Shown piece after piece: positions 411 through 63,400 of a stretch of DNA of 64,000 nucleotides. The DNA is taken from NCBI GenBank assembly GCA_022606425.2, contig JAHDVF020001505.1, positions 124,001-188,000 of the forward strand, read 5' to 3'. The notes beneath the pieces were generated by a model that was not told where the DNA came from, ran no database searches, and saw only the letters and a program-made list of their open reading frames with translations. This stretch comes from Lepidostoma basale (taxonomy: Eukaryota > Arthropoda > Insecta > Trichoptera > Lepidostomatidae). The first letter of the stretch is position 1. Each line of letters opens with the position of its first letter. The position numbers were made by a program, and so were the translations under genes.

Positions 411-460
411 TTTTACGCGACAGCTGTTTCGTCAACTTATGTTGACATCATCAGGTGTTA
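411..460 (-). ncRNA. Hammerhead ribozyme motif, family A
   Basis: On the minus strand CTGATGA (454-448) is followed by a perfect 6-bp stem II (GTCAAC/GTTGAC), then GAAAC, a palindromic CAGCTG stem III with no loop, and the cleavage triplet GTC (421-419). All conserved core bases of the hammerhead are present. Stem I (before CTGATGA with GCGTAAAA after GTC) pairs with A-C and A-A mismatches. Stem III is too short for a stable monomer, as in retrozyme and Penelope-like hammerheads, which work better as dimers. Activity is inferred, not shown. Confidence 0.75.
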
Positions 461-473
461 CTGTTACTAGTTA

Positions 474-527
474 GGTTTAACACCTGATGATGTCAACATA
501 GGTTGACGAAACAGCTGTCGCGTAAAA
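474..527 (+). ncRNA. Hammerhead ribozyme motif, family A
   Basis: CTGATGA (484-490), stem II GTCAAC-ATAG-GTTGAC, GAAAC (508-512), CAGCTG stem III and GTC (517-519) occur in order. Predicted cleavage is after C519. Flanking GTTTAACAC and GCGTAAAAT give stem I with an internal A-C and A-A mismatch, like the internal loops of natural hammerheads. It is the mirror copy of the motif at 411-460. Confidence 0.78.
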
Positions 528-639
528 TAAAATACAATTGTGATACATAAAACAAAGTTTTTTTTAATTTAACAGTTTATAATGTTAAAGTATCATAGTG
601 TTTCGGCCAAAACAATGGACTATTTAATTTCATAACGGA

Positions 640-728
640 GACGAAAAGAGAAGGATGGAGTGGCGCATCGGTTAAAGTGTGGCAGTCCATTATTTCTGCC
701 TACCCCTTCAGAGAGACGGCGTGATGTT
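640..728 (+). mobile_element. SINE-C fragment (LINE-family-1-like tail)
   Basis: This piece matches the 3' half of SINE-C (better preserved at 14318-14505): AAAAGAGAAGG, TGGAGTGGCGCATCGGTTAAAG, then the LINE-family-1 3' end down to GGCGTGATG. The 5' SINE head is missing. It ends directly at the poly-T of the next SINE. Confidence 0.6.
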
Positions 729-862
729 TTTTTTTTTTTTAAAGACTAACATCAAGGATTTATGTCAATGATATTTGAATTTGTTTTACAATCTTAAATG
801 TGAGCATGCCCCCTGGATCAAGAGCCAAGCGTTCTATCCCCTAGACCACCACCCGGTTATTT
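728..862 (-). mobile_element. SINE-B, tRNA-derived
   Basis: The minus strand reads GGGTGGTGGTCTAGGGGATA then GAACGCTTGGCTC, which is tRNA-like with an A-box resembling TGGTCTAGGGG, followed by a region matching the copy at 3250-3433 and a poly-A (plus-strand T run 729-742). The B-box region is damaged. Length and A-rich tail fit a SINE rather than a tRNA gene. Confidence 0.65.
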
Positions 863-2284
863 AATTAGTTACTTACTTACTTTCTTCCGCTATGTATTCT
901 TCCTGATATCAGAAGGCTACATATGATTAACAACTGTCTCATTAAATTAAAATTCTCATCATTAAATGTTTTATATATAAAAAAATGCATTAATAAAAAA
1001 TGTAAACACATTTTTAATATTGAAATATCAGAAGATCGGGTTTACGTTTTTATTTTTATTTTTATTTTTTATTTTTTTTATTTTAATTTTATTTTACATG
1101 TTTTATTTTACAATTTGCCAAAAAAGTTTATATTAATTTTGGGATTCGACCATATCTATAAAATAATTAATTCGTACGTTAGTACCAAATTATAACAAGT
1201 TGGCTACATTTCGTGTACAGTTGTCTGAATAAATTTAAATTCCCGTAAATTTTAATTTTTTGTATAAAAATATGATCTCACAATTAATAATCAAATTTAA
1301 ACGCACCAAAATACCGAATTATCTTAAGTTTTATCAAGTACGTAGTAGCTTTTTATCTTTACAGCTTTATTAAAAATGTTTTCAAAAAAATTTTCTCATT
1401 ATTTACAAAACAAAATTACAAATCTTTACAGCAGACTTGTGAAATTATATTTCCGAACGTTAAAAAAACATCCCCTAAAAATAATTCAATAGAGTTGGCA
1501 TCAAAGAGTAACGAAACCTACTAATTTGTATGATAACTAATTGAGAATATGAACTCAATAAAATTTCTTAGAATTTCAGATTACAAACCCCAAAACACTT
1601 AATCACAAAATCAGAAAGATTTTTTTAATAAAATATTTTTAATAATGTATAAAATGTTATTCATTTTTCTCTGGTATATCTAACAAGATGTAAATAATCA
1701 CAAAAAAGAACAGAAAAGTTTCTGCTCGTATAATGTTTAATGTAGGCTTTTAGTAAAATGTTTTATCATCTGCTCCATTTTGATGAGAATGATGATATGG
1801 TATACATATTTTAGTAAAAGCCTATATTAGGTTATCAAATTAGGTCATATGTACAATAGAAGACGTCCACATTTCTCTCCATATCTTTGGTGATCATCCT
1901 GGTGTTCGACAGCCCTTTGGATTCTAGCACATCACGATATTTGGAATCCTCTATATGTACATGAATGTTTATATTATATGAAACAATCATTTATATTTAT
2001 ATAAATGTTTATATTGTATTATAATCGTATAATAATTTCTGATCTAATAGTTATTAAAAGTTATAAAATTAGGTTGTGTACATTTTTTATTAAATAATAT
2101 AAAAAATATCAATGGTGGATTAGTTGAAATTATATAATAAAGTGTATATTATATATAGAACATCTGTTATATAAACGTTTATTAGAAATGCATTTCTTTC
2201 ATTGGTGAGCAAAGGTTAAATATACTCGTATATTGTATGAGAATACTTACAGTTACTTTTCTTTTTGTAAATATCAAACTAACA
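863..2284. other. AT-rich region without recognised genes
   Basis: About 1.4 kb of very AT-rich sequence. The only open frames are low-complexity. There is one imperfect inverted repeat: TAGGCTTTTAGTAAAATG at about 1743 and its complement ending near 1829, enclosing a TGATGAGAATGATGATATGG segment. This could be a small MITE remnant. I see no host exon. Confidence 0.5.
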
Positions 2285-2410
2285 AAACATCACGATCCTA
2301 GATGCGAGGAAAAGAAGATGGACCGCCACACTGCTCTATCCTGACACAACTCTCGCGCCTCTTATTCACACATTGTGACATGCACGCTCGTCGATGGTTC
2401 CTACTTCGAA
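2285..2410 (-). mobile_element. LINE family 1, 3' fragment
   Basis: Minus-strand sequence matches the last about 120 bp of family 1 (the region coding MTRCMNVEEARE..C.DR.VWRS in better copies), including GGCGGTCCATCTT. It is truncated at both ends and has frame breaks. Confidence 0.6.
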
Positions 2411-2454
2411 TGTATTTAGAAGAATTACTTTTTGCTATCTGCAATGTAAATCAT

Positions 2455-2885
2455 TATGAGCTATATGTTTACCGGTAGTCACCTACGGCTGAGACATGGT
2501 CTCTAACGCAGAGAGAGAGGAAGGCAGGCTGGCAGTTTTTGAATGGAAAATTCTAAGAAAAATGTTTGCACCCACGCTGGAGAATGGGACTTACAGAATT
2601 AAAATAAACCTTTAACTTGTAATTAACCAGGAAACAGTAGTGAGATTCTGTAAGTCTCAACGGCTACGATGGGCTGGCCATGTGGAAAGAATGCCAGAGG
2701 GTAGAACACCACAAATTATATCCAGATGGGTGCCACGCGAAAAGAGATCAAGAGGCAGACCGAGGAAAAGATGGGCGGATTGCGTGAAACAAGATTGGGA
2801 GAAAATGGAAGGAGCTGGGGAATAGAGAGAGATGGCGTGGAGGAGGCCAAGTCCCACACCGGGATGTAGCGCCGAGAAATGAATG
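2455..2885 (+). mobile_element. LINE family 12, 3' part
   Basis: Decayed C-terminal reverse-transcriptase-element sequence. VTYGAETWSLTQRE is read near 2475-2515; a later frame gives LRWAGHVERMPEGRTPQ and RGRPRKRWADCVKQDWEKM (2650-2810), typical of the region after the RT domain in RTE-like insect LINEs. Frame changes separate the pieces. The last segment is shared with the short TSD-flanked copy at 19048-19198. Confidence 0.8.
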
Positions 2886-2984
2886 TTTTCCTATCCATGT
2901 ATATAAAACATTTTATTTAAACTTGACGGTTTTTTTATTTCACTTATTATATATTTATGTAAGACTTTTTGATCGAATAAGAAA

Positions 2985-3240
2985 TTGAGACTCGTAGAAT
3001 GTCGAAAGTAACAGATGTTGTCGAAAGAGTGGCTGAGCGTAAATGACCATTTGTGGGACATGTTGTCAGACTGATAGACCAATGATAGACTAAAGATGGA
3101 CCAGAATGACAGTGCAGTGAGGAAAATGTGACACGGTCAAATTGTCGGCCACGTGAGGAATAGGAGAAAATAACATGTCACGGTGTTAGTATGTAAGGGA
3201 GGGGGATAAGTATATCAGGAAATAACAGTGAGAGACGACG
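2985..3240 (+). mobile_element. Decayed LINE fragment, family uncertain
   Basis: A frame reads VVERVAERKWPFVGHVVRL, resembling the conserved KxxWAGHVxR segment of LINE C-termini. The downstream part resembles the family 1 3' end (TATATCAGGAAATAACAG, ACGACGTGATG). Too eroded to assign firmly. Confidence 0.45.
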
Positions 3241-3249
3241 TGATGTTAA

Positions 3250-3433
3250 TCGGGTGGTGGTCTAGGGGATAGAACGCTTGGCTCCTAATCCAGGGGACAT
3301 GGGTTCAAGCCTGGACACGACCAGATTCCTTCTTCATAATAATGAGCTATTTTCTGCTCACATCGAAGATTGTAAAATAAATTCTAATATCATTGATTTA
3401 AATCCTTGATATTAGTCCTTTTTTAAAAAAAAA
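3250..3433 (+). mobile_element. SINE-B, tRNA-derived
   Basis: Starts with GGGTGGTGGTCTAGGGGATA (A-box-like) and has GGGTTCAAGCC (B-box, 3300-3310), matching the RNA polymerase III internal promoter of tRNAs. It is followed by a tRNA-unrelated body ending in ATATTAGTCCTTTTTT and poly-A. The clearest SINE-B copy in the window. Confidence 0.75.
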
Positions 3434-3439
3434 ATTGTG

Positions 3440-4287
3440 AAATTTTGACGTGTGTGAAAAAAAAGATATATAATACATTAAAAGTAACAATCTATTACTG
3501 ATAACGATAGTATAGAGAACAAGGTAATTAAAGGTAAGAAAATCTTTGCTTTCGTAAATATTTCACGGGTTGTAACCGTATTTCATAAACGACATTTAAG
3601 TATATAATTTCAATTTAATATAACAGATTGTTCTGTTGTATGTGAATTTTATATCATTAGAGAAGTTTATATGTTACGCCTAATGTAAAAAATAATCCTT
3701 CCACCCAATCCCTAGGAATCAGAGGCATATCGGCTGACCCCTCGGGGGCCATTATGTTCGACCTAATACCCCACTAATAGCATATAAATCTCTCCATCTC
3801 TAAGTTACTCTGTGTTTGTTAGCTGCCCAATGTATTTCCTTACAAGTAGTTTGCAAACAATGGAGTGATACGTTTTAGATTCTACGATATTTTTATTTTA
3901 ATAATCAAAATAGATTTTACTATTATATACTAATTGTATTTTTGCGCAATAATCTCTTTTAGTATTTACTACCACATTTAAATAGTTATTACGAATGAAA
4001 ACGTCTCTTTTCTAGAAGTTTTATTATCCCTTAACAAATGCATTAGAATTATGAAACATGTCATTCCCTTAAAAAATAATAAACTTCTAAAAAAACAGTC
4101 GTAATCATTCGCATTAATTATTAAATATGGAGTTTTACATCATTTTGTTATCTATCTATCTATTTCGTTAGTATAAAACTGCATAAATATTAAAATATTG
4201 TTGTACTCCGAAGAACAAAAATTCGTTGCCTTTTTACAACACAGATATTCAATCAAAATTTTTATTTTTTAACTAATTAACAAACCA
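3440..4287. other. AT-rich region with degraded HHR-C palindrome
   Basis: No exon is apparent. At 3985-4145 an inverted repeat carries TTTTCTAGAAGTTTTATTA and its complement around GAAACATGTCATTCCC, the flanks of HHR family C, but the stem II and core bases are gone. A GC-richer patch (3695-3790, CCCTAGGAATCAGAGGCATA) is unassigned. Confidence 0.45.
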
Positions 4288-4600
4288 ACCATCACGCCGC
4301 TTCTCCGGAGAGATAGGCAGAGAGTATGGACTGCCACACTGTTCTATCCTGACTCTCACGGCTTTTCTACATTCACGTACCCTGACGCTCGTCGATTGTG
4401 CCGACTTCTAACATGGCCTTTAAGTAATTGATTAAATTGGTCATGCCATGTCTTATTTGGTGTTTCTTGACTTATTTCTTCATTCACCCTGCTGGTATAA
4501 ACTTTTTACCCTTCTTCTTACATCCATAAATCCAAACCATGTTGGTGACCCTTTTTTGATCTTATTTAGGACGCAATCATCCGCCTTTCTTTTCATACTT
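4288..4600 (-). mobile_element. LINE family 1, 3' part
   Basis: Minus-strand match to the family 1 C-terminal region, from the RMxxxY..DVNG-like segment (about 4500) to the 3' end CGGCGTGATGG at 4288-4300. Reading frame is disrupted. Its 5' side ends at a GT microsatellite. Confidence 0.7.
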
Positions 4601-4604
4601 GTTC

Positions 4605-4656
4605 GTTCGGTGTGTGTATGTGCGTGTGTGTGTGTGTGTCTGTGTGTGTGTGTGTA
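4605..4656. repeat. (GT)n microsatellite
   Basis: About 50 bp of GT/TG dinucleotides with a few interruptions (GTATGTGC, GTCTGTG). Confidence 0.9.
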
Positions 4657-5174
4657 ATACTGCTGCAAATTCGAATGTTTACAAAATGATTCCTTGTTAA
4701 TTTTATTTTATTTAAACAAAAATATATAATTTATTTATTTAAAAATGTATGTCCGCAACCTTCATAATACAGATTTAAAAAACGTCCTTCTCATATGCCG
4801 GTACATAAAAAATGAAACATCTAAAGTTTCTTACGAAACAACTTGGATAAACTTTAACCGGATATTTTACATCACCGTATGGTGAAAATCTCATAAGACA
4901 AACTTTCTTGATATTTTTTAGTAGTGTTATTTACCGTAGAAAAAGTCCGTTATAAATATACGAATATGTTTTTTATTGTGTAGATTTTCACGGTTGGTAG
5001 CTATATGTCTTTTGGAATCTTGAGAAAATCATAACAATTGTACATAAATAAAATACATTTAAAAAATGTAAAAAAAAAAGTACAGCTCTAACTTTTTGTC
5101 AAAACATAAAGTGTGCAAAAATAATACTCATGGTTTATTTAACTCAATTTCACAAAAAACGCATCCGGGACCTT

Positions 5175-5187
5175 TTGCCAAATAAGT
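5175..5187. repeat. Target-site duplication, left copy (LINE family 2)
   Basis: TTGCCAAATAAGT occurs here and again exactly at 5824-5836. The pair brackets the LINE insertion 5188-5823 and shows that it inserted in one event. Confidence 0.9.
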
Positions 5188-5823
5188 CTTCTTCTTCTTC
5201 GATGGCCCTACAGCCCATATCGAGCCTTAGCCTCCAGTATTCTTCGCCTCCAACTCCTCCTGTCCTCCGCTTCGACCCTCCAATCTGACCCTCTTAACAA
5301 TCTTGCTCCATCTCTCCCAACTTCATCCTCCCATCGCAGCCTTGGTCGTCCAATTAGTCTTCTACTACCTGGGTGCCACTCCAGCAATCTTTTTGGGGTT
5401 CGCGATGACGGCATCCTCTGCACGTGACCGGCCCATCTCAGTCTATTCAGTCTGACCTGTGTGGAGAGACTGGGAGCTTTGTAAATATTGTACAGCTCGT
5501 CATTATGCCGCACTCTCCAGCCTTCACCGTCATTCACAGGCCCCAGAATTCTGCGCAGCACCCTTCTCTCAAAAGTATCCAGTCGCTCTGCAGATTTCGC
5601 TGTCATTGTCCACGCCTCACACCCATAGGTCACTACTGTTTGGATGATTGTTTTATACAGGGTGATTTTGGTTTTCCAGTGTACGTTTCTTGATTTGAGC
5701 GCTGGTAGTAGAGAGAAGAATGTTTTGTTACCAATTGTGATTCTTCTTTCGATTTCCTTGTGATCTTCGTTTTCTTTTGTTATAGACGAACCCAGGTAAG
5801 TGAAGTCCTCCACCATCTTAAAG
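5188..5823 (-). mobile_element. LINE family 2, 5'-truncated, intact TSD
   Basis: A 636-bp insertion flanked by a perfect 13-bp duplication. On the minus strand it carries one open frame of about 200 codons (5816-5208) encoding only the segment after the RT catalytic core: DFTYLGSSITK, TYGCEAWTMTAKSAERL, LRWAGHVQRMPSSRTP and RPRLRWEDEVGRDGARLL. The 3' end is a short (GAA)n tract instead of poly-A, which fits RTE-like LINEs. No RT palm motif is present, so the copy is dead on arrival. The uninterrupted frame and perfect TSD indicate a young insertion. A close relative is at 51466-52011. Confidence 0.92.
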
Positions 5824-5928
5824 TTGCCAAATAAGTACCGAAATAATAACTCGTTGAAACAAACATATAATTTTGATATTCATTTAATTAAAACACAATA
5901 TTTTTATACGCTACTGATACCTGTATAC

Positions 5929-6098
5929 CTGTACGAAATTCAAAATGCGTAGTATGTTCGTGGGTAGGTAGAGTTTCTTCAAACTCCCATAGGTAAAGGA
6001 ATCTCGGATCTTCTTTAGTACCCTTTGCACCAACTCTCTTAAACCTGTACACACATATATTATGTATGGGGTCGCTTTGAGTAGTCCACGTCTTGAAA
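5929..6098 (-). CDS. Candidate host exon, unknown gene
   Basis: The minus strand is open across this interval and reads like real protein (TWTTQSDPIHNICVYRFKRV, later DPRFLYLWEFEETLPTHEH). Acceptor-like sequence TTCTCCCGTTTGTAG ends at 6099, and a donor-like CAG|GTATAC sits at 5928-5927. The codon phase at the acceptor is 2. The frame has no stop from about 6140 to 5888. It matches no repeat in this window and lies just downstream of a recent LINE insertion. The protein family is not recognised. It may instead be a fragment of a transposase or a non-coding conserved block. Confidence 0.4.
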
Positions 6099-6289
6099 CT
6101 ACAAACGGGAGAATACTTTACAGGGAAAATGAGTCCTAACGTAATCAACGACTAATGAAAAAAATTGTTTAAATTTGGCTTATGGAACCATATAACATTT
6201 TGAAATCAGAATAAAACGCTTACGTGACAACTGTTTTTAATAAAATTCTTTAACAGCGATGTCAAACTCTACATTAAATATTGATTCAA

Positions 6290-6560
6290 TATTCATTTAT
6301 TGTTTCTTGAACAATGATGTAAAACTCCATATTAAATTATTAATATGTATGAAAAAACGATAGTTTTCAAGGAGTTTTACTATAATATTTATGTATGACA
6401 TGTTTTGTCCTTCTAAGGCATTATCAAATGTTTGATAATGATTTGATAATGCAAGGATAATAAACATTTGATAATGCCATAGAAGCGCGAAGCATGTCAT
6501 ACATAAATATTGTAATAAAACTCATTGAAAACTATCGTTTTTTCATACATATTAATTATT
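6290..6560. repeat. HHR family C inverted pair
   Basis: Left arm, motif on the minus strand: ATTATCAA...GTCC..ACATGTCA near 6398-6428. Right arm, motif on the plus strand: TTTGATAATGCC then GCGAAGCATGTCAT near 6468-6502. Both have UUGAUAA where CUGAUGA is expected. Outer arms (TGTTTCTTGAACAATGATG, and ACTATCGTTTTTTCATACAT in complement) are shared with the 158-bp tandem units at 51 kb. The GAAA is mutated in both copies (AAAA, GAAG), so neither is likely to be active. Confidence 0.65.
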
Positions 6561-6599
6561 AAATGGTCGATTGTTTTGGCCGAAACTCTATGATACTTC

Positions 6600-6830
6600 A
6601 ACATTATTATTGTTAAAATTCAAAACGCTGTTATAATATCACAATTTCTTTTTATTCACTGAGAGTGTCGCGACAGCTGTTTCACCAACATCATCATCAT
6701 CAGTTTATTAGTTTATTGTAACACCTAATCAGTTTATTAGTTTATTGTAACACCTAATGATGCCAACATCGTTTGGTGAAACAGCTGTCGCGACACTCTC
6801 CGTTAATAAAAAGAAATTGTGATAATAATA
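6600..6830. repeat. HHR family A inverted pair, decayed
   Basis: Arms 6620-6703 and 6746-6828 are reverse complements (AGAGTGTCGCGACAGCTG and its mirror). The plus motif has CTAATGA in place of CTGATGA (6754-6760), an imperfect stem II (GCCAAC/GTTTGGT) and intact GAAAC-AGCTGTC. The minus motif has lost its stem II (repeated ATC units). A duplicated TTATTAGTTTATTGTAACACC lies between the arms. Confidence 0.7.
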
Positions 6831-6949
6831 TCACAAACTGTTATAAAACAGTGTTTAAAATTTTAACAGTAATAATTAAATATTACTGGAAACTCCTGTC
6901 ATCTCTTCATTAAATATTTATAAAATCGTTAAGGACAAAGTGAGATCAA

Positions 6950-9669: not shown

Positions 9670-9765
9670 ATTGTAACACCTGATGATGTCAAAATAGGTT
9701 GATAAAACAGCTGTCGCGTAAAATAAAATACGATTGTGAACAAAAACAAAATTATTTAATTTAAC
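9670..9765 (+). ncRNA. Hammerhead-like motif, family A, decayed
   Basis: AACACCTGATGATGTC then AGGTTGATAAAACAGCTGTC: CTGATGA (9680-9686) and GTC (9712-9714) are intact, but GAAA has become AAAA and one stem II pair is lost. The usual family A tail (GCGTAAAATAAAATACGATTG) follows. A solitary copy without an inverted partner nearby. Confidence 0.6.
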
Positions 9766-16540: not shown

Positions 16541-17484
16541 CTCGTGGTTATCCATTCTTTGACTATGACCGTCTATATTAAAAAAATTTTATTAATATTT
16601 TAAAATAAAAATATGATTTTATTTGAAGTTATTTGATATTATAAGGGCAAAAGAATCCATTTCAACTTTCTTAACTAACACAAAATTTTCTTACGTACAT
16701 TTTACCTGACTCTTGATCACCTATATCGTAGTCTCAAGAAAAATCTAGGACTTTAGAATAAACCCTATATCCTCCATAGCCCTCTTTGGAGGAGCACTCC
16801 GGGCCACACATCTAGCCCCCGCATAAAACAACTATCAAATCACATTTCCAACAATGTTTTCATGTAAGAGGAATATCCATTAGACCTGAACCTCTGTAAG
16901 CCAGAAGATCTAAGTCCAAGTCCTAGTCCATTGCATTTTTATTGATAACAATAATTGACATAAATCTAAGATCATTTTCATACAAAAACAGTAAAAAATA
17001 AAAACCTTAGACAAGTTAAGACAACATTAATGTTAAAAATATTTAGATTATTAAAAAAGGAAGGATTAATTAACAAATGTACTGATGAGCAATAACACGA
17101 CTAGCAATTAGCGAGCGACGTATTTTATTATATTGTGGTAGGGTTACAAGGTACAAGTGTCAACAAATAGTATAAATTTGAGCTGTTTTGCAGAAATTAT
17201 AGGTTTGGTAGAGGTCTATACATACATTTTATCTGACTCCTGATCACCTATATCGTAGTTTCCCTAAGCCCCCCTACTTCCTCAGAGAGAGCATGCCCCC
17301 TTTATACTCTAAAGTGCCCCTAGGAGACCTAATGGGTCCACTCAGAGAACCTGTGATCTACATGCATGACCCAAACAGCACAACCTGCAGATTAGAATTG
17401 AATGACTACATAAGCCCCGATTAAATTCATACAACTTCGCATTTGACTGCTTTTTTTTACTGAATTTATATACTTTGTTATAAA
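16541..17484. repeat. Region with 36-bp direct repeats, unassigned
   Basis: ACATTTTACCTGACTCTTGA followed by TCACCTATATCGTAGT at 16697-16733 recurs with two changes at 17222-17258, about 525 bp apart. Each copy is followed by CCC-rich sequence. It may be an unrecognised nested or tandem element. The intervening stretch has no sustained frame. Confidence 0.45.
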
Positions 17485-17533
17485 CTGTTAAATTAAAAAC
17501 CTTTTTTTATCTATAACAATTGTATTTTATTTT

Positions 17534-17578
17534 ACGCGACAGCTGTTTCGTCAACCTATGTTGACATCATCAGTAACC
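17534..17578 (-). ncRNA. Hammerhead ribozyme motif, family A
   Basis: Minus strand CTGATGA (17573-17567), stem II GTCAAC-ATAG-GTTGAC, GAAAC, CAGCTG, GTC (17540-17538) then GCGTAAAA. All core bases are kept. The 5' half of stem I was removed when a LINE inserted immediately upstream. Confidence 0.7.
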
Positions 17579-17813
17579 TTCTTTTTCTTCTTCTTCCTAG
17601 CCTTCCCTCAACTGCTGTATGTAGGCTTCTTCAATCTGTCACCATTTTTCTCTATCCTGTGCTGCTTCAATCCACTTTTTCCCGGCGACCACAACAATAT
17701 CGTCAGCCCATCTCTTCTGTGGCCGACCGACACCCCTTTAGTTTTCCCATGGCCTCCACTTTAAGACTTTGGGAGTCCATCTTGAACTTGGCTGTCTGGC
17801 TACGTGTCCTGCC
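17579..17813 (-). mobile_element. LINE family 3, 5'-truncated, TSD-flanked
   Basis: Flanked by CATCAGTAACC (17568-17578) and CATCAGTCACC (17814-17824), an 11-bp duplication with one change. Minus strand encodes the C-terminal piece GRPQKRWADDIVVVAGKKW and DRKKW in frame with family 3. The 3' end is (GAA)-rich. It landed exactly at the 5' edge of a hammerhead motif. Confidence 0.85.
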
Positions 17814-17854
17814 CATCAGTCACCTATGTTGACGAAATGCAGTTGACGTTACCT

Positions 17855-17905
17855 ATGTTGATGATGTCAACATAGGTTGACGAAACAGCTGTCGTGTAAA
17901 ATGAA
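17855..17905 (+). ncRNA. Hammerhead-like motif, family A, one core change
   Basis: TTGATGA (17858-17864; C3 changed to T), stem II GTCAAC-ATAG-GTTGAC, GAAAC, AGCTGTC, then GTGTAAAAT. Only the first core base departs from the consensus. Confidence 0.6.
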
Positions 17906-18239
17906 ATACAATTGTAATACATAAAACAAAGTAATTTAATTCAAAAGTTTAAACTTTGAAGGTATCATAGTGTTTCGGCCAAATCAATGGACTCTATTTT
18001 GTTATCAGAACAAATCATAACGCCGCTTCCCCGGAATGGTTGGCAAAGATAATGGACCGCCACACTACTCTACCCTAACACCCCCTCCGGATTCTTGCAC
18101 ATTTATACAGTGAATCAAACAGACACGTCGATTCTTCCGACTGCTAACAAAGCTAATCATATAATTGCGTAGGTTTTCAACGTTGCAGCAATATGTTTTG
18201 TGTGATTTTGGGTAACAACGTGTGATTCCTCCTTCTCGA

Positions 18240-18278
18240 CCGACGTTTCGGAGATCATTGCAGTCACCATCTTTAGGG
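18240..18278 (-). ncRNA. Hammerhead-like motif, family F
   Basis: Minus strand: CTAAAGA (one change from CTGAAGA), imperfect stem II (GGTGA.../TCTCC), GAAAC and GTC (18244-18242). One core change and a stem mismatch suggest weak or no activity. Confidence 0.55.
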
Positions 18279-18317
18279 TTATGTGGTAACTCATCCCACA
18301 CTTATTACATCCACTAC

Positions 18318-18372
18318 ATTAACCTGATGACGGAGACTGTAATGATCTCCGAAACGTCGGTCGAGAAGGAGA
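18318..18372 (+). ncRNA. Hammerhead ribozyme motif, family F
   Basis: CTGATGA (18324-18330), stem II GGAGA-CTGTAATGA-TCTCC (5 bp with 9-nt loop), GAAAC (18351-18355) and GTC (18356-18358). Stem III is reduced to a single C-G step, as in some short-stem-III hammerheads. Stem I (TTAAC / GGTCG) is poorly paired, which weakens the call. Confidence 0.6.
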
Positions 18373-19047
18373 AATCACACGTTGTTACCCAAAATCACAC
18401 AAAACATAAAGTTTATCATTAAAATTGTATTAATTTTGGGATGTTATGTTTTCTTCGGTCTTCACGTAAAGATTCTTAACCATTCTTTCTTTATCCATGC
18501 GTACGTCCAAACCAACGCATTGAAACTTTCATACCCTTTTTCAAAATACCCCTTACATTTAACGCACATTCCTCTACGTGATCTCATTACTCCCACATTT
18601 ATTCTGCTCTGATCCTTCTTCTGCCAATTCTATATTTTACTTCCGTACGTATGGGTTGAAAAGTTGTTTTCAATGTTGTTTAAATTATTTGATTTAATTA
18701 TACATTTAAAAAAAATACATCCTTTCATTATCCGTTAATATTTGTTATCATGAATGACCACAAATTGCAGAACCTTTGTTGTGTGGATATGGGAATAATT
18801 AATCAAATGTGTATATTTACAAGTTTGGCCGCACGGGGGCAGTTAAATTGTTTGCATACGGAAATTTTCACAGCAGTGGTTACCCATTTTGAAAAAAATA
18901 AGCATTAGTCAACTCATGACACTGGAAGCTCATAACAAACATTTCAAATTTAACCTTAATTGTTCGACTGACCTCATTTGCAGTAAGAAAAATTGAACCC
19001 AACCTGCGGTTGACTATATTTTCAAACAGATAGTTCCAATCGTTTTT

Positions 19048-28892: not shown

Positions 28893-28938
28893 GATTAAAC
28901 ATGTTTCGGACTACCGAGTCCATTCTCAGTGATATTAT
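28893..28938 (-). ncRNA. Hammerhead-like motif, family E
   Basis: Minus strand: ATCACTGAGAATGGACTCGG then TAGTCCGAAACATGT. GAAAC is intact and stem II (GGACT-CGGT-AGTCC) is perfect. The core is CTGAGAA instead of CTGANGA, and cleavage would follow GTT. Partly decayed relative of the 63228 motif. Confidence 0.5.
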
Positions 28939-28974
28939 ATAAATATTTGAAATATTATAAAATTTAAATTTTTA

Positions 28975-29345: not shown

Positions 29346-29351
29346 TAAATT

Positions 29352-29610: not shown

Positions 29611-29654
29611 AAATTATCTGAATATTTAAGTCCATTGTTATGACCGAAACACTA

Positions 29655-30799: not shown

Positions 30800-31545
30800 T
30801 AATAATAATAGTGTTCGCAGATATTTTATATAAATTACATTCTGATGTACCTACCACTGTTGCCGGTGTGAATAATTTTCTAAACAAACATAATTCCTAC
30901 AGGCATCAAGCTTTAGCGTGTTCATCCATTGTGATTTAGCCATACTAAACTTGAGTTAAGCGCTTTTAACCGTAAACAGGTTGGAACAACCCAAAATGGA
31001 GGGATTTCCGGCGTCGGTACATAAATTGAAACCCGTAACTTCAGAAATCCACCGCGGCAAAGCCCTGAATATGACGTTTCATTCGTATTCATACCCATCT
31101 AATTCATCGGGTCCGACTGGCGTTCATAACAAAATTCATTGCCTTAATTTACAAAATCGTTATTTGTATGTTTTTTTAATTGTGTTGAAACGCAACCATT
31201 ATTATCCATTAACTGTAATTGCATCATTTTACCAAGGAAGTTACGTTCATTTAGATATTTGTTACATGATAAATAAAAGTTCTTAATGGTGATGTATATC
31301 TCCATTATGTTCATTCTAATTATCTAGGAAAAAATATACAATCAGAACAAAAGCAGCGTTTCGTATTTTTACCTCAAAATACATTACAATATTTATGAAT
31401 ACAAATTTAGAGCCAGTTCAGCTATTTCCGAATTCAATGGGTATTTCAATATAATCTTTATCTAACTTTATCAGGAAATTGTATTCTAGGATATTAACTT
31501 AATTTTTATAAACATTTTATCCATTAATTATTTTAAACATATTAA
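30800..31545. other. Mostly single-copy sequence, possible conserved block
   Basis: 30960-31150 stands out by balanced composition and an open frame on plus (VEQPKMEGFPASVHKLKPV, EIHRGKALNMTFHSY) after an acceptor-like TTAACCGTAAACAG. It matches no repeat here. Exon or conserved non-coding element cannot be told apart from this sequence alone. The rest is AT-rich. Confidence 0.35.
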
Positions 31546-31547
31546 AA

Positions 31548-31592
31548 AACACGACGTGTTTCGGAGGATACATCCATCTTCAGGTGTAAAAA
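31548..31592 (-). ncRNA. Hammerhead ribozyme motif, family B
   Basis: Minus strand: ACAC-CTGAAGA, stem II GGATG-TAT-CCTCC with one mismatch, GAAAC, ACGTC. Cleavage would follow GTC (31555-31553). Stem I ACAC/GTGT is perfect over 4 bp. Stem III is a single C-G. Confidence 0.7.
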
Positions 31593-31819
31593 TATAATAA
31601 AAACTAATATAAAAACGCATTTAAAATTCGAAACAATAATTCAAATTTAAAAATTAACCTGGGCTTTTTGTTATAAGTACTAATAATTATTATTAACACT
31701 AAGAACTAATAAATAATAATAATACGTGATGATAATTTTTAAAAATGTTATTACAAATGTTTTGTATTTTTTGTAAATAATTTTTTTTACAAATTTAAAG
31801 CGGAATTTTATTATATTTT

Positions 31820-31862
31820 TACACCTGAAGATGGAGGTATCCTCCGAAACATGTCGTGTTTT
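31820..31862 (+). ncRNA. Hammerhead ribozyme motif, family B, consensus copy
   Basis: ACAC-CTGAAGA (31825-31831), stem II GGAGG-TAT-CCTCC (perfect), GAAAC (31846-31850), ATGTC with GTC at 31853-31855, then GTGT closing stem I. Stem III is the 4-nt palindrome CATG, too short for a monomer hairpin. Every conserved core base is present. Confidence 0.82.
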
Positions 31863-31989
31863 TAAGATTTTTTTAATAATTAGTGGATTAAACAAAGTTA
31901 TTATCAATTTCCCAAGTATATTACTTTGGAATTCCACAGTGTTAATGCCTTAGCGTTCAATAAGTTAATTAATCAATCTTATTATTCGA

Positions 31990-37005: not shown

Positions 37006-37436
37006 TGAATTAACCTCCCACCATGGGTGAAAATCCAGAATTCGTATACCAGTATAAGTATACATTCACAAAAAATATAAATAATATTTTATTGCATCGA
37101 TACGATTAAATTTATTGGAAATATTTATGACTCGAGGCTATACGCGACGTGATTGAATTGCAACCTAAGAGCTTGCGTACGTATCGAATGAACTTCTCGG
37201 AAGAAAAGCTCCGCAGCGGCTTGATCATCCATGTTCAGTTTCCAGTTTGCGTCTTCGTCTCTATTGAGATACAACTAAAATTTGAATTAACCACCCTTTG
37301 GTGTAAATCCAGGATTTCGTATACAGGTATAAGTATACATTCACAAATATTTGTTGACCAACAAAGATGTTAAATACTGAGGAAATTGAAAATAACTTTT
37401 TTGAATCCTCTATTTATTCATAAAAAATATTTAAAA

Positions 37437-37480
37437 ACATGACATGTTTCGGAGGATACCTCCATCTTCAGGTGTAAAAA
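37437..37480 (-). ncRNA. Hammerhead ribozyme motif, family B
   Basis: Minus strand: ACAC-CTGAAGA (37471-37465), GGAGG-TAT-CCTCC, GAAAC, ATGTC, then ATGT. The full core is intact; the first stem I pair is C-A instead of C-G. Confidence 0.72.
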
Positions 37481-37814
37481 TATAATAAAGACTAAACAAA
37501 CAAAGACTAATAAAAAACGCATTTTAAATTCGACACAATAATTCAAATTAACCTTGGCTATTTGTTATAAGTGCTTACCATTATTTTTTAACAGTAAGAA
37601 CTAATAAATAATATTAAATAATAATAATATATGATGATAATATAAAAAATAATAATATAGAAAAAACATTTGATAAGACATAATTTATATAGAAATTACT
37701 CAATGATTAATTTGCATTTGATTGGGACAGGGAGCTTGGGAGATTGAATATAGACAAAGTATTTAAGGAAAAGGAGTAAAATGAGAAATCTGATTTTTAA
37801 TTAAGTTTCATGAT

Positions 37815-37862
37815 TGTTAAGATGGAGGTATCTTCCACAACATGTCGTGTTTTTTTAATATT
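37815..37862 (+). ncRNA. Hammerhead-like motif, family B, decayed
   Basis: TGTTAAGATGGAGGTATCTT then CCACAACATGTCGTGTTTTT. The inverted partner of 37437-37480, with CTGAAGA reduced to GTTAAGA and GAAA changed to ACAA. Not expected to cleave. Confidence 0.6.
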
Positions 37863-37929
37863 TTTTAAATAAATAGTGTATTAAACAAAGTTATTTTCAA
37901 TTTACAAAGTATATTACTATGGAATTCTA

Positions 37930-38284
37930 CAGTGTTAATGCCTTAGCGTTCAATAAGTCAAAGATGTTAGATTTTCTAGTATTGAAATATGTATAAAAAT
38001 GCATTTAAACAGCAATGGAATATTTTTTTATCAAATAAAAGAAAAATCATGTGTATGGTTATAATTTATTACGTTTGTTTTTTTTATTCATAGATTCATA
38101 TGACAGGAACTCTATTTTGAATATTGACTATTTATAAAAACTTATGTTTTATGGAGGTTTTAAGATACTTGAATAGTGGTTTAATTAACTGGGCATTTTA
38201 ATTATCATTAATATGAATTTGTTTCACCTTGCAGAACGTCTGCACTAATTATTATTTTTTAATTAAATTTAAAATATAACCTCG
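37930..38284. other. Unassigned AT-rich sequence
   Basis: Nothing recognised. Confidence 0.4.
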
Positions 38285-39155: not shown

Positions 39156-39200
39156 ATATCATGGAGGAAGGACCGGGTTGTCCAAAACATGTCTGATATT
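39156..39200 (+). ncRNA. Hammerhead-like motif, family E, decayed
   Basis: ATATCA then TGGAGGA in place of CTGAAGA, stem II GGAC/GTCC, AAAAC for GAAAC, ATGTC and TGATAT. Stem I (ATATCA/TGATAT) is a perfect 6 bp, which supports the alignment although two core positions have mutated. Confidence 0.55.
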
Positions 39201-42699: not shown

Positions 42700-42880
42700 G
42701 ATTACAATATTTTTTGTGAATGTATATTTATACTTGTATACGAATACTGGATTTCACCCACCGTGGGTTATTAATTCATGATTTAATTGTATTCAATTAA
42801 ATCATGAATTAATAACCCACGGTGGGTGAAATCCAGTATTCGTTTACAAGTATAAGTATACATTCACAAAAAATATTCTA
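42700..42880. repeat. Family H palindrome
   Basis: Arms 42707-42785 and 42797-42876 are near-perfect reverse complements (AATGTATATTTATACTTGTA outside, AATTCATGATTTAATTG at the centre). It could extrude a cruciform. No TSD identified. Confidence 0.85.
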
Positions 42881-45339: not shown

Positions 45340-45922
45340 TGAAGACTTTTATAAAACAGTATGAAATTATTATTGTCGGCCAATGAATAGATATCCCTTT
45401 GTATTTACCAAAAGCGTATATGTATTTTTTTCGTACATTTTTTAAATATATTTATCATATTACATGAGAGTATTTTTGAAATTTAAAGAAATTCCACAAA
45501 TCCGAGTATGAAAATAGGACAATGTTATGTTATTTTTTTATTAAAAAACAACAAATAAATCATAAACATTTATTTTAAAAAGATATTGCATTTTTTTCCA
45601 TTTATAAAGCTTTTAATGGCATACAGAGTTTTGCAGACCTTTGACACATCATTCACGTTGGCATGTTTAAGTTTAATGTCATGTGTTATTTTTCCAATTT
45701 TTTTTTAGTTAATCTTTAAGTTTTAGAAATATAAGCTTTTCCCATTATATGCAGTTAGATAGATATGTATTGTATATTTATTTAACGACATATTGGCATT
45801 ACAGTTCCAAAATCGTCAAGAACCGACATATGTGCTGCATGCGTAAATATAAACGTAAATAAGTAGGTAAGGATAAGAAAATAGAGGTAAAGAAAAGTGA
45901 AGAAGAAAAATAAAATAGCAAC
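45340..45922. other. AT-rich sequence, inferred intron
   Basis: No repeat recognised from about 45340 onward. It lies downstream (minus) of the donor at 45922-45921, so it would be intron. Confidence 0.4.
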
Positions 45923-46716: not shown

Positions 46717-46734
46717 AGAGGTCCTCTCACGTTA

Positions 46735-50765: not shown

Positions 50766-50904
50766 TGCTCTAACTTCTAATTATGTGATTTTACGTAAAT
50801 AAAGTAAAATTTATCTTATTCTGAATTAAATAAATACGTTTAGCTATATGATCAATTTATTATATCAAAACAAACATGGGAAGCTAACCTATACTGAATG
50901 CATT

Positions 50905-51378
50905 TTTATTTATTGTGTCTTGAACAATGGTGTAAAACTCCATATAAAATAATTAATACGAAGGAAAACGTCAGTTTTCTAGAAGTTTTATTATATTTTA
51001 TGGGAATGACATGTTTTGCCCTTCTAAGACATTATCAAATGTAAATTATATACATCTAAATGTTTATTTATTGTGTCTTGAACAATGGTGTAAAACTCCA
51101 TATTTAATAATTAATACGAAGGAAAACGTCAGTTTTCTAGAAGTTTTATTATATTTTATGGAAATGACATGTTTTGCCCTTCTAAGACATTATCAAATGT
51201 AAATTATATACATCTAAATGTTTATTTATTGTGTCTTGAACAATGGTGTAAAACTCCATATTAAATAATTAATACGAAGGAAAACGTCAGTTTTCTAGAA
51301 GTTTTATTATATTTAATGGGAATGACATGTTTCGCCCTTCTAAGGCATTATCAAATGTAAATCCATACATCTAAATCC
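50905..51378 (-). repeat. Three 158-bp tandem units carrying HHR-C motifs
   Basis: TTGTGTCTTG occurs at 50913, 51071 and 51229, and the motif GAC at 51008, 51166 and 51324: exactly 158 bp each time. Each unit, on the minus strand, reads TTTGATAATG, stem II, (G/A)AAAC-ATGTC-ATT, AAACTTCTAGAAAACTGACG, GGAGTTTTACACCATTGTTC. Units 1 and 2 have AAAA, unit 3 has GAAA. Tandem small units with one short-stem-III hammerhead per unit are the arrangement of animal retrozymes. Confidence 0.88.
51320..51362 (-). ncRNA. Hammerhead variant, family C, best tandem copy
   Basis: Minus strand: CATTTGATAATGCC, TTAGAAGGGCGAAACATGTC, ATTCCC. UUGAUAA core, stem II GCCTT-AGA-AGGGC (5 bp with one G-U), GAAAC, CATG stem III, GTC. 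The two deviations (C3 to U, G8 to A) are at positions that pair with each other in the hammerhead fold. Confidence 0.6.
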
Positions 51379-51395
51379 ATCATAAAACCAATCAC

Positions 51396-51465
51396 ATTTA
51401 ATAATGCCGTAGAAGGGCGAAACATGTCACTCCCATAAAATATAATAAAACTTCTAGAAAACTGA
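51396..51465 (+). ncRNA. Hammerhead variant, family C, inverted unit
   Basis: ACATTTAATAATGCCGTAGA then AGGGCGAAACATGTCACTCC: GAAAC and GTC intact, UUAAUAA core. It faces the tandem array head to head and is cut after AAAACTGA by a LINE; the unit resumes at 52022 (CGTTTTCATTCATATG). Confidence 0.55.
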
Positions 51466-52011
51466 AAACATTCTTCATTCTTCTCTCTACTACCAGCGCT
51501 CAAATCAAGAAACGTATACTGGAAAACCAAAATCATCCTATATAAAACAATCATCCGAACAGTAGTGACATATGGATGTGAGGCGTGGACAATGACAGCG
51601 AAATCCGCAGAGCGACTGGATACTTTTGAGAGAAGGGTGCTGCGCAGAATTCTAGGACCTGTGAATGACGGTAAAGGCTGGAGAGTGCGACATAATGACG
51701 AGCTGTACCATATTTACAAAGCTCCCAGTCTCCCCAACCAGGTTAGACTGAATAGACTGAGATGGGCCGGTCATATGCAGAGGATGCCGTCATCGCAAAC
51801 CCCAAAAAGATTGCTGGAGTGGCACCCAGGTAGTAGAAGACCAATTGAACGACCAAGGCTGCGATGGGAGGATGAAATTAGGAGAGATGGGGCGAAATTG
51901 TTACAAGTGTCAGATTGGAGGGTCGAAGCGGAGGACAGGAGGAGTTGGAGGCGAAGAATACTGGAGGTTAAGGCTCGATATGGGCTGTAGGGCCATCGAA
52001 GAAGAAGAAGA
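51466..52011 (+). mobile_element. LINE family 2 inserted in an HHR-C unit, 10-bp TSD
   Basis: AGAAAACTGA flanks it at 51456-51465 and 52012-52021. Open frame 51565-51990: MTYGCEAWTMTAKSAERLD, TFERRVLRRILGPVNDGKGW, LRWAGHMQRMPSSQTPKRLL, WEDEIRRDGAKLLQVSDWRV. The 3' end is (GAA)n. Nearly identical in protein to 5188-5823. Confidence 0.93.
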
Positions 52012-53576: not shown

Positions 53577-53845
53577 ACATCGCACCGTGAGTGTAAAACC
53601 GAGATAAGTGCAAATATACATTTTGGAGATATGGGAGTTTAAAGACTTCGTATTGCTTTGAAAAACTGTTTTTTTTTTAATAAACCAATGATTTTCGGTT
53701 TATAAGTATATTACTACAAACCGAAAATCATTGGTTTATTTAAAAAAAAACAGTTTTTCCAAACAATATGAAGTCTTTAAACTCCCATATCTCCAAAATA
53801 TATATATTTGCAGTTATCTCCGTTTTACACTCACGGTGCGACATG
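53577..53845. repeat. Large foldback element (129-bp arms)
   Basis: Arms 53577-53705 and 53717-53845 are near-perfect reverse complements, from TCGCACCGTGAGTGTAAAAC at the outer end to CAATGATTTTCGGTTT at the centre, with an 11-bp loop. No hammerhead core and no other copy in the window. It may be a foldback MITE; the flanks (ACACA / CATGT) do not give an unambiguous TSD. Confidence 0.88.
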
Positions 53846-56875: not shown

Positions 56876-57015
56876 TTAAAACATTTGATAATGCCTTAGC
56901 AGGGCGAAACATGTCATTCCCATAAAATATAATAAAACTTCTAGAAAACTGACGTTTTTATTCGTATCATTTTTTTAATATGGAGTTTTACATCATTGTT
57001 CAAGAAACAATAAAT
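56876..57015 (+). ncRNA. Hammerhead variant, family C, with unit flank
   Basis: ACATTTGATAATGCCTTAGC then AGGGCGAAACATGTCATTCC: GCCTT-AGC-AGGGC stem II, GAAAC, CATG, GTC, and UUGAUAA. The rest of the 158-bp-type unit follows (CTTCTAGAAAACTGACGTTT, TTTACATCATTGTTCAAGAA) to about 57012. A complete solitary unit. Confidence 0.6.
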
Positions 57016-58569: not shown

Positions 58570-58617
58570 TTTACACCTGAAGATGGAGGTATCCTCCGAA
58601 GCATGTCGTGTTTTTTT
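58570..58617 (+). ncRNA. Hammerhead-like motif, family B, one core change
   Basis: ACAC-CTGAAGA (58577-58583), GGAGG-TAT-CCTCC, GAAGC in place of GAAAC, ATGTC, GTGT. A single A to G in the GAAA box; otherwise the same as the consensus copy. Confidence 0.65.
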
Positions 58618-61105: not shown

Positions 61106-61409
61106 CATAGGTTTCCAATCTTTTCTGGGCCACCGCCCCCTTTACTAAAAAAATAAATGTTCAACGCCCACCTCCCATGAAAATTATTCCGAAAAAGGAA
61201 AAATGATTACATTACATTCAATAACAAAATAAACCAATATTTAAGTTTAATTTGCTTTATTAGTATCTATGTGATTATCGTTTTTTTTTGTATTTTTAGA
61301 CTATATTTTTTTATCTGCCCACGCTTTTTTTTTCCGGGTCTTCTACTGCCCCCCTGAAAGTCTCAAACGTCCTCAAGGGGGTCGTTATCACCCACTTTGA
61401 GAACCTAGG
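61106..61409. mobile_element. hAT-type MITE
   Basis: Ends CATAGGTTTCCAA (61106-61118) and, in complement, CCTAGGTTCTCAA (61409-61397) with 10 of 13 matches, flanked by CCTTAGAT (61098-61105) and TCTTAGAT (61410-61417), an 8-bp duplication with one change. Sub-terminal TGGGCCACCGCCCCCTTTAC and CCACTTTGAGAACC are typical of hAT MITEs. Length about 304 bp, no coding capacity. Confidence 0.85.
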
Positions 61410-61419
61410 TCTTAGATAA

Positions 61420-62795
61420 AACCCTAAAATACTCGATTTATATTATATATTCCTAAATGTTTTAATTTTGAAACACTATAAAGTTTGGAAAAATTATATT
61501 TTCGCATTTTTCACTTTGCAACAAACATGTTTTAGGCCGCAAACGAACTTTCTCAGTGTAAAGCCAAGAAAGAGCCAAATAGAGCCAAATCAATTGATAT
61601 GTTTCCATTAATATAAAACAATTCACTCACAATTAATAAACAGCACTCTAAAAGGAGATTCTACGGTTACTTTAAAGGGGTTTCTAAATAGTTTTCAATT
61701 TGTGTTCAATGTGTAAATACAAAGTTGTTGCATAAAAATATATTTACTCTATTAACAAACGAAATCATGAATTCTTCTCTTTTCAAAATAAATAAATTCC
61801 AAATAAAAGTGTGAAGAATAAAATATAAGAAATCTCCGAATACTTAATTTCTTCCAGTTCAGTAGTACCCTGATTCTATTATCTGAGAAAAAAATGTAAC
61901 GTTTTCCAAGGAATTTCTCCACAGAAATAAGATGTTATTGACACATGTGCTGAAATCGGGTCTGAGAATCTTTTTCCAAAAATACACAATTCCCGAGCAA
62001 AACGCACCTACCTAAAACAGAACAATTGCGTGTCGTTTTGCTGAAACATAAAACGCAGGGTCTTGGGGTTTAAACGAATTTCAGTCAAGTTGAGTATGCT
62101 GAATCTAAAGCGTCCGGACTTGAAAGTAAAGTTGGTATGAAACACGTATTTACCGAACATGGAAAATGAATAAGTTAGCTACTCGTTTTGGGTACATATT
62201 CTCAGCTCACATACGGAAATGTGAAATCGAGTTTAAACTCAACATGTTGTTTCTGTGATATGTAATATTTACATCGTAGAAAACGTTCAACTTGATTAAA
62301 CACTGGAATACGTTTGAAAAATATATAAACGTAATCAATATTCAGTAAAACGGGTGTATTTTATTTTCAAAATACATATGGAGGAACGATTTAAAGAAAT
62401 TACGATATTTCTAGGGACGCATCAGCATCTGTGACAAAGCGTTTTTGCCCTTCCGCCAAACAAAGAACCGCAATAAAAATGACCCATTTATATTATAAAA
62501 TATGTATCATATATTTTTTATGTAGATTTCTCTATTGTGTCAGCTCTTTTTTGACTCGAGTCAAATTTCGAGATCAGCGCTATTAAAAACACAAACTATT
62601 TGACTGAATAGTTGAGGTGACCCCATTTGAGTTAACTGCAAAGTTTGGTATTTAAAATTTTAAATAACAAATATATATATTTTTTTATATTTCATACATA
62701 TTAAAAACTACCGATACGATCACGTAACAACAAATAAACACTATCAAAAAGAAAAAAATATAAATTATAAATAATGAAATAAATTTAATTAATAA
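61420..62795. other. Unassigned, probably single-copy sequence
   Basis: About 1.4 kb with no repeat match in the window. 61920-62250 and 62395-62480 have balanced composition (GAGCAAAACGCACCTACCTA, GGGACGCATCAGCATCTGTG), without a long frame. Confidence 0.4.
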
Positions 62796-62797
62796 TG

Positions 62798-62970
62798 AAA
62801 TAAAACGATGTTTTTAACTACTTCCACTTTTGTCATTATTTCGACAGCGACCGGTTTCGCCAGGCTCGCTGGCATCGACAGATTGGTAAGATCGCGAGCC
62901 TGGCGAAACCGGTCGCTGTCGAAATAAAGACAAAAGTGGAAGTAGTTAAAAAACATCGTTTTATTTGATT
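62798..62970. repeat. HHR family D inverted pair
   Basis: Arms 62800-62868 and 62892-62962 are reverse complements (AAACGATGTTTTTAACTACT outside, GCGACCGGTTTCGCCAGGC inside). The minus copy reads CTGTCGA (A6-N7 altered to TC), stem II GCCAG-CGAGC-CTGGC, GAAAC, CGGTC, GCTG. The plus copy keeps GAGCC-TGGC-GAAAC-CGGTC but has lost the CTGANGA side. Best read as a hammerhead relative with one core defect. Confidence 0.6.
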
Positions 62971-63169
62971 ATTATTTAAAATGAACTTCCATCAAGAGTC
63001 ATTCGATTATCTTAAAATAAATTTAACGTCAAGTCCAATCTTTGATTTATTTCCTTTGTTGTAAGTAATTACCTGAACCCCAATAAGAACTTTAAATTAT
63101 TATTTTAAATTGAATCATAATATTTTTTATAATAAAGCATAAACGTTCCAAAATAAATCTTTATAACAT

Positions 63170-63400
63170 CTGTCAGATCATGTAAACAATTTTATAATAT
63201 TTTAAATATGTATCTTTATAATATGTATCACTGAAGAAGGACTGGTTGTCCGAAACATGTCTATGTAATTTAAAAAAATTTAATGTAAGTGTTGTATAAA
63301 CAAAGTGTATAAAAAAGAAAAAGAGAAATAAAGCAATTACAACACAAAGTATGGCGAATACAGAAGAAAGACGATCATATTTAATGAAGAATTTAATGGG
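63170..63400 (+). repeat. HHR family E unit
   Basis: From ATCTGTCAGATCATGTAAAC through the ribozyme (63228-63270) to AACACAAAGTATGGCGAATA. The last part recurs at 28575-28640 and 38745-38790 (complement), and the first part at 39110-39160, so a repeat of at least 230 bp is indicated. Confidence 0.65.
63225..63270 (+). ncRNA. Hammerhead ribozyme motif, family E
   Basis: CTGAAGA (63231-63237), stem II GGAC-TGGTT-GTCC, GAAAC (63252-63256), CATG stem III, GTC (63259-63261). All core positions are intact. Stem I (ATGTATCA / TATGTAAT) pairs only at the first position; the 39156 relative shows that the ancestral stem (ATATCA/TGATAT) was complete. Confidence 0.68.

Follow-up and report, generated by a model that had tools for sequence, protein, structure and literature searches.

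Minimal hammerhead motifs in a 64-kb stretch of the Lepidostoma basale genome, most likely in relics of several non-autonomous Penelope-like families

The stretch analysed here, called the window, comprises 64 kb of the genome of Lepidostoma basale (Insecta; Trichoptera), namely positions 124,001 to 188,000 of contig JAHDVF020001505.1 in assembly GCA_022606425.2. It contains six families of short motifs built like hammerhead ribozymes, in which stem I is short and partly decayed, stem II has 3–6 bp and stem III is merely a palindrome of 4–8 nt. Minimal type I motifs of this kind in Penelope-like elements (PLEs) were reportedly described by Cervera and de la Pena in 2014 and by Lunse et al. in 2017. 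In our view the copies in the window are most likely what remains of several PLE-like families that were non-autonomous and carried minimal dimeric hammerheads; the kind is known, and one core variant may be new. We put at roughly two in three the probability that the window holds relics of about six short PLE-like families without a coding gene, each unit combining an arm like a pseudo-long terminal repeat (pLTR) with a minimal hammerhead motif of type I. Most of these copies are probably no longer active.

Motif families, chance controls and pairing

Both strands of the window were scanned with a loose descriptor built independently of Rfam (CTGANGA-N8..40-GAAAC-N0..6-NTC), which gave 9 matches (484+, 18324+, 31825+, 63231+, 37471-, 31583-, 17573-, 6703- and 454-) against a mean of 0.35 in 200 dinucleotide shuffles. 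Stem II reaches 3 bp or more in eight of the nine, in agreement with the eight places at which a first-pass annotation of this DNA had reported the ordered pattern in full, and that pattern is real; at 6703- the motif letters are present and stem II is absent. When a stem II of at least 4 bp was required (exact core CTGANGA...GAAAC...GTC), 7 matches remained against a shuffle mean of 0.02. They are split over four families (three in A, two in B, one each in C and D) and count as four, because arms and copies repeat one another and are not independent. A strict descriptor, with the exact core and a palindromic stem III, also gave 7 matches, every one with a stem II of at least 4 bp and exactly one extra nucleotide after CTGANGA. 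Its controls yielded a mean of 0.15 and a maximum of 3 in 150 shuffles, and 0 in the reversed window, which preserves hairpin content and is equivalent to a complement-only scan, both strands being scanned. With one core mismatch permitted, 13 window matches were obtained against a shuffle mean of 2.0 and maximum of 7, so that the weakest partial matches are individually unsafe. The shuffles and the reversed window rule out a chance origin of the motif set, less clear-cut as this is for the one-mismatch matches.

Six motif families were counted, where at least five had been proposed:

Family A: CTGATGA T GTCAAC..GTTGAC GAAAC AGCT GTC, stem II GTCAAC/GTTGAC, palindrome ACAGCTGT
Family B: stem I ACAC/GTGT, stem II GGAGG/CCTCC, palindrome ACATGT
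Family C: CTGATGA C GGAGA..TCTCC GAAACGTC, stem II GGAGA/TCTCC, palindrome ACGT
Family D: CTGAAGA A GGAC..GTCC GAAAC AT GTC, stem II GGAC/GTCC, palindrome ACATGT
Family E: CTGTCGA (A6 to U) T GCCAG..CTGGC GAAAC CG GTC, palindrome ACCGGT
Family G: TTGATAA T GCC..GGC GAAAC AT GTC, stem II GCC/GGC, palindrome ACATGT

The hammerhead core occurs in order (CUGANGA...GAAA...UH). At least one exact version of it is present in each of families A, B, C and D, and it is altered in E (A6 to U; CTGTYGA in two of three copies) and in G (U3 and A8). Stem II varies between families around this core, as had been claimed, and so does stem III. The latter is self-complementary in the five families A to E, among which four sequences occur (ACATGT, ACAGCTGT, ACGT and ACCGGT), and ACATGT recurs in G. 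Copies D3 and D2 jointly retain the family D stem I letters ATATCA/TGATAT. The families are mutually dissimilar by BLAST (11 element regions against the window, E<1e-4), save for abutting parts (A/G and D/G) and LINE-like (long interspersed nuclear element) flanks in common. The order of core elements given by the first-pass annotation stands. It had omitted the single unpaired nucleotide that separates CTGANGA from stem II in every family, and family C is better read as GAAACGTC, with ACGT as its palindrome. Considering the altered cores of G, E, D2, D3, A2R and A3R, its 'ribozyme-bearing' families are better described as carrying ribozyme motifs, many of them probably dead. Most tabulated copies have T as the extra nucleotide, and A9-N-G10.1 reads ATG in 17 of 20. 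The presence of such a nucleotide in all families may reflect a single PLE-type ancestry, so the earlier exclusion of common descent was too strong.

Pairing was assessed on 8 ungapped rows from families B, D and G; an all-family MAFFT alignment was not used, since it misaligned GAAAC owing to the different stem II lengths. Stem II has 93.8% of its cells paired and both-side changes in three of four pairs, and the first pair of stem I occurs as CG, UA and AU. The covariation score was 0.418, whereas shuffled rows averaged 0.155, and sliding the partner lowered it to at most 0.150. Over both stems, 83.8% of cells are paired (67.6% shuffled) and 13 show a both-side change (5.5 shuffled); for each of these three measures, none of 500 shuffles was as high. 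Compensatory pairing in stems I and II supports the hammerhead reading, short of conclusive given that the eight rows, drawn from three families, are copies related to each other. A covariance model built in the window from the same rows (model R2) and run without filters listed 45 matches with E values up to 10. Below E=0.5 there are 27, counting the 8 training rows, so that the 'about fifteen' further partial places of the first-pass annotation are a fair estimate. Outside its training set, model R2 recovered three of six family A copies (E 0.013, 0.037 and 0.46).

Element anatomy and the Penelope-like reading

Inverted arms of at least 50 nt were found in 11 element regions (A1, A2, A3, B1, B2, B4, C1, E1, G1, G2 and G5). 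Hairpin elements span about 226–586 bp, and those with readable motifs carry a motif or its remnant in both arms, pointing outward. Head-to-head inverted arms are combined with a one-sided tail in A1, A2, B1, B2, C1, E1 and G1. The elements and motifs of families A to E are as follows:

366..621: element A1, inverted arms 366-460/478-574, tail on the right to about 621, inside a LINE-like repeat
419..454, - strand: family A motif of A1, found by both descriptors
484..519, + strand: family A motif of the other A1 arm, predicted cleavage after C519, model R2 E=0.013
6565..6869: element A3, tail on the left, joined to G2, flanks TAATTATTAAAT (12 bp, 1 mismatch, p=0.04)
6754..6789, + strand: family A motif A3R, core CTAATGA, missed by model R2
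9680..9715, + strand: family A motif A4, AAAAC replacing GAAAC, without an inverted arm
17482..17994: element A2, inverted arms round a LINE-like fragment, flanks TACTTTGTTAT / TATTTTGTTAT (p=0.013)
17538..17573, - strand: family A motif A2L, core intact, missed by model R2
17858..17893, + strand: family A motif A2R, core TTGATGA, missed by model R2
18163..18412: element C1, inverted arms 18192-18287/18313-18408, tail of ~28 nt on the left
18324..18358, + strand: family C motif, found by both descriptors, missed by model R2
31515..31968: element B1, inverted arms 31515-31602/31806-31892, one-sided tail to about 31968, ~76 nt past the shorter arm
31553..31583, - strand: family B motif of the other B1 arm, found by the loose descriptor and model R2
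31825..31855, + strand: family B motif B1R, the best in the window (stem I ACAC/GTGT, stem II GGAGG/CCTCC, ACATGT)
37373..37958: element B2, exact 11-bp duplication CAAAGATGTTA at 37362-37372 / 37959-37969 (p=0.001)
37441..37471, - strand: family B motif of B2, found by both descriptors and model R2
58577..58607, + strand: family B motif B3, single arm, GAAGC replacing GAAAC
28898..28929, - strand: family D motif D3, core CTGAGAA, model R2 E=0.0004
39162..39193, + strand: family D motif D2, decayed, stem I letters TATCA/TGATA retained, model R2 E=0.17
63231..63261, + strand: family D motif D1, inverted arm searched for and none found
62789..63014: element E1, exact 12-bp repeat AAATAAATTTAA at 62777-62788 / 63015-63026 (p=0.0003), tail of 34 nt past 62980
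62849..62881, - strand: family E motif, core A6 to U, missed by model R2

The two exact duplications, of which that of E1 is composed purely of A and T, are accompanied by the weaker flank repeats of A2 and A3 and a 7-mer at A1 (p=0.056). All these p-values refer to random window pairs, with end windows set after the repeats had been inspected, and are thus optimistic. For C1, another copy of its host LINE-like repeat at 30265-30400 shows the site without the element (ends approximate, placed by eye). Within A2, the LINE-like fragment 17579-17816 is 90% identical to 34264-34501 and was either captured or nested.

This anatomy resembles that of Penelope in Adineta vaga, for which PMC3846280 describes head-to-head inverted pLTRs with an optional 31-bp tail on one of them, duplications of 8–10 bp that only some copies possess, palindromes where the inverted pLTRs meet, and unrelated DNA taken up between them. 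Inverted arms, a tail on one side, short duplications and captured foreign sequence are thus shared, whereas the window elements lack a reverse transcriptase (RT) or GIY-YIG frame and consist of hairpins of about 226–586 bp only. Hammerheads are not mentioned in the main text of that paper (0 occurrences). The motif itself matches the minimal type I hammerheads that, according to the review PMC7761336, occur by the thousand across animal genomes, mostly in non-coding DNA, some of them in PLE pLTRs, and probably act as dimers; their role in PLEs is there called unknown. The core, the short stem I, stem II, the reduced or absent stem III, the dispersed occurrence and the start codon at stem II are common to both. 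Differences lie in U3/A8 of family G, in A6 to U of family E and possibly in the additional nucleotide that precedes stem II throughout the window families. Insertions of one or two nucleotides beside CUGAnGA are known in hammerhead alignments, as PMC10085705 reports. In the PLE studied in PMC11167929, a hammerhead with stems I and II has the open reading frame (ORF) starting at stem II and the cut 26 bp downstream; in B1, the distance from the ATG at A9-N-G10.1 to the predicted cut is 25 nt. The lead to Penelope-like elements given by the first-pass annotation was right. Within 64 kb, motifs of six families lie dispersed in small elements, and PLE-type inverted arms are present in half of the element regions, which suggests that non-autonomous PLE relatives are what spreads the motifs.

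From these features we infer how the elements may have spread. A read-through transcript would carry two or more motifs, and the palindromic stem III would join two of them into a double hammerhead, whose cut 3' of GUC would release unit-length RNA. A PLE-type RT acting in trans would then start at the tail and reverse-transcribe the RNA at a staggered break, which would produce the one-sided tail and a target duplication of 11–12 bp. Head-to-head arms would arise by self-priming. PMC11167929 ties the PLE tail to reverse-transcription start sites and reports that the ribozyme cut only with protein present.

Several results weigh against a Penelope-like origin. PMC11167929 reports that in vitro the hammerhead was dispensable for PLE insertion and that no reads ended at the cut site. 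Within the window, a coarse six-frame motif search detected no GIY-YIG and no PLE RT remnant, and Pfam assigned 0 families to the 10 of 31 listed ORFs that were submitted; as no RT or GIY-YIG gene was found in the window, we term the elements PLE-like rather than PLEs. The remaining 11 of 22 element regions have no inverted arms of at least 50 nt, being single-arm, short or decayed. Exact target duplications of at least 9 bp flank only two of nine elements, and C1 and G1 lack an exact flank repeat of even 7 bp. Among the 8 rows, stem I has 65.6% of its cells paired, and there is no excess in the number of pairs with a both-side change (4, a value reached in 257 of 500 shuffles) or of pair types (7, reached in 243 of 500). 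Model R2 misses A2L in spite of its intact core, A2R and A3R, as well as families C and E. The Rfam covariance search that the first-pass annotation had named as a check found no hammerhead family up to E=10, the reach of these models for the PLE type not having been gauged by a positive control. Finally, minimum-energy dimer folds gave stem II together with an intermolecular palindrome duplex in only two of nine motifs (B1R and D1).

The elements could instead be miniature inverted-repeat transposable elements (MITEs), that is, DNA transposons in whose terminal inverted repeats the motif forms a part and resembles a hammerhead by accident or as a transposase-binding site. Inverted arms are indeed common in the window, with 69 pairs (of the 25 longest displayed, arms reach 231 nt), and several palindromic elements (such as 28961-29351 and 53614-53805) carry no hammerhead motif in the scans. 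However, the motif lies inside the arms and not at their termini, and the ends are asymmetric, with a tail on one side. Self-pairing of stem II within an arm and a palindromic stem III would be unexpected of a protein site, and their letters vary by family. A MITE origin thus appears unlikely to us, if the least unlikely of the alternatives.

Family G and its core exchange

Family G combines a distinctive core with a tandem arrangement:

6278..6564: element G2, family G motifs in each arm
50902..51465, - strand: element G1, three tandem 158-bp units and an inverted single arm
51354-51324, 51196-51166 and 51038-51008, - strand, and inverted arm 51398-51428, + strand: G1 motifs, one per unit
56885..56915, + strand: family G motif G3, single arm

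All 11 copies with a readable core have T at position 3 and A at position 8, a count from which four more G-like matches (4026, 7520, 38499 and 21493) were omitted as too decayed. In the standard hammerhead, positions 3 and 8 pair as C3-G8. The U3/A8 exchange could preserve the core pair, and the lineage may have either a compensated core or a dead core spread in trans. That a chance second change should hit the partner and restore the pair is unlikely, by our own estimate a few percent. According to PMC11167929, C3G or G8C singly abolishes cleavage and the C3G/G8C double change partly restores it, an exchange that differs from U3/A8. Our literature search found no report of U3/A8 hammerheads, primary PLE-hammerhead papers being outside its coverage, and novelty is not claimed. 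Should U3/A8 hammerheads cleave, they would offer a natural double change for probing the C3-G8 requirement.

The tandem units of G1 bear on another alternative, that the elements are metazoan retrozymes, which are small non-coding tandem repeats propagated through circular RNA with a canonical type I hammerhead. PMC7229834 gives 170–400 nt for metazoan units, close to the three 158-bp units of G1 with one motif each. With metazoan non-long-terminal-repeat retrozymes the window thus shares small non-coding units, a type I hammerhead and the tandem of G1. When tandem units of 150–450 bp with a canonical type I hammerhead are taken as the mark of a retrozyme, G1 has three units of 158 bp and a minimal motif with U3/A8. 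Unlike those of retrozymes, however, the motifs of the window are minimal and have no stem III loop. Tandem units occur in G1 only, and the hairpin elements in families A, B, C and E show an inverted arrangement; the word 'inverted' has 0 occurrences in the text of PMC7229834. A retrozyme origin is accordingly improbable, more so than that from MITEs. On a bolder and tentative reading, to which we give a small chance, G would be a natural hammerhead lineage that spread with U3-A8 in place of C3-G8, active by compensation, in a 158-nt unit that unites a retrozyme-like tandem with PLE-like inverted arms and so bridges two known kinds.

Family G also takes part in junctions with other families. 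The A tail, reversed, is joined to G at a nearly identical G position at both 6564-6601 and 29625-29660; this double junction may represent a composite element or a repeated template jump. A second interfamily junction is found where a G tail fragment (28533-28574) abuts a family D piece (28575-28650).

Coding content, matches elsewhere and neighbouring features

The ATG at stem II could in principle mark a conserved start of a PLE ORF (M....SETCR), retained as a peptide with no ribozyme involved. Besides its frequency, open frames from this codon of 40 codons (B1R), 37 (C1L) and 26–28 (E) would fit, as would the frame-0 position that GAAAC, where placeable, takes in A, B, C, D1 and G. However, the frame stops after 2–3 codons, before GAAAC, in five of six tabulated A copies and all three of G, and GAAAC falls into frame 1 for D2 and D3 and into frame 2 for E, so that the letters are not conserved as a peptide; with the upstream CTGANGA and the stem II pairing left unexplained as well, we regard this as the least probable explanation. 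The prevalence of ATG is as expected if these pLTRs once opened a reading frame. The six-frame search returned four polymerase-like sites, of which 22753- is probably a LINE.

Beyond the window, a family-B-like pattern matched three records (L001–L003) in a genome-contig collection. L002, from a bin labelled Zoogloeaceae, has a full motif with new letters in stem I (CCCC/GGGG, 4 bp) and stem II (GGCGT/ACGCC, 5 bp); between positions 1-2000 and 2001-6691 its GC content falls from ~0.6 to ~0.37, and the motif lies in the AT-rich part. The record is probably animal DNA in a bacterial bin, and its contig probably a chimera or contaminated. In L003, which bears the label Prevotellaceae, an AT-rich end of the contig holds the core together with stem I CCTT/AGGG and a weak stem II; this record, too, looks like animal DNA in a bacterial bin. 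As these two of the three records were found by a pattern derived from family B, model E-values obtained there are not independent. L001 lies within a bacterial reading frame, lacks a stem II of 4 bp and was taken as chance. Three pattern searches of a viral-contig collection gave 0, 1 and 0 loci, and the single one (L004), without a stem II in the stretch examined, was set aside.

Further features were observed along the window. Frames that look like decayed C-terminal regions of retrotransposons lie at 5208-5879 (-), 51466-51990 (+), 27573-28088 (-), 30195-30749 (-), 40450-40878 (+) and 41473-42006 (-); Pfam found no family in the five of them that were scanned, while 51466-51990 served as a protein query. 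A protein search with one ORF yielded 18 relatives, none with an informative name. An arthropod origin of the DNA is suggested by its retrotransposon ORFs. A 310-aa open frame at 45799-46731 (-), with repeated DxYR-like motifs and no Pfam family, is perhaps a host exon. Long palindromic elements with arms of 87–138 nt, none with a hammerhead motif in the motif scans, occupy 28961-29351, 36785-37003, 42703-42880 and 53614-53805; BLAST links the first three to one another, with relatives at 42259-42509 and 33253-33455. Rfam microRNA-family matches, all below gathering and on hairpin elements, were treated as hairpin artefacts. Near D2, ARAGORN places a tRNA-Gln-like gene at 38973-39044 (-), which scores 25.5 bits with the Rfam tRNA model, under the 29-bit threshold. 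At 26689-26743, a tandem repeat with a 21-bp unit contains TGTGACGTCACA.

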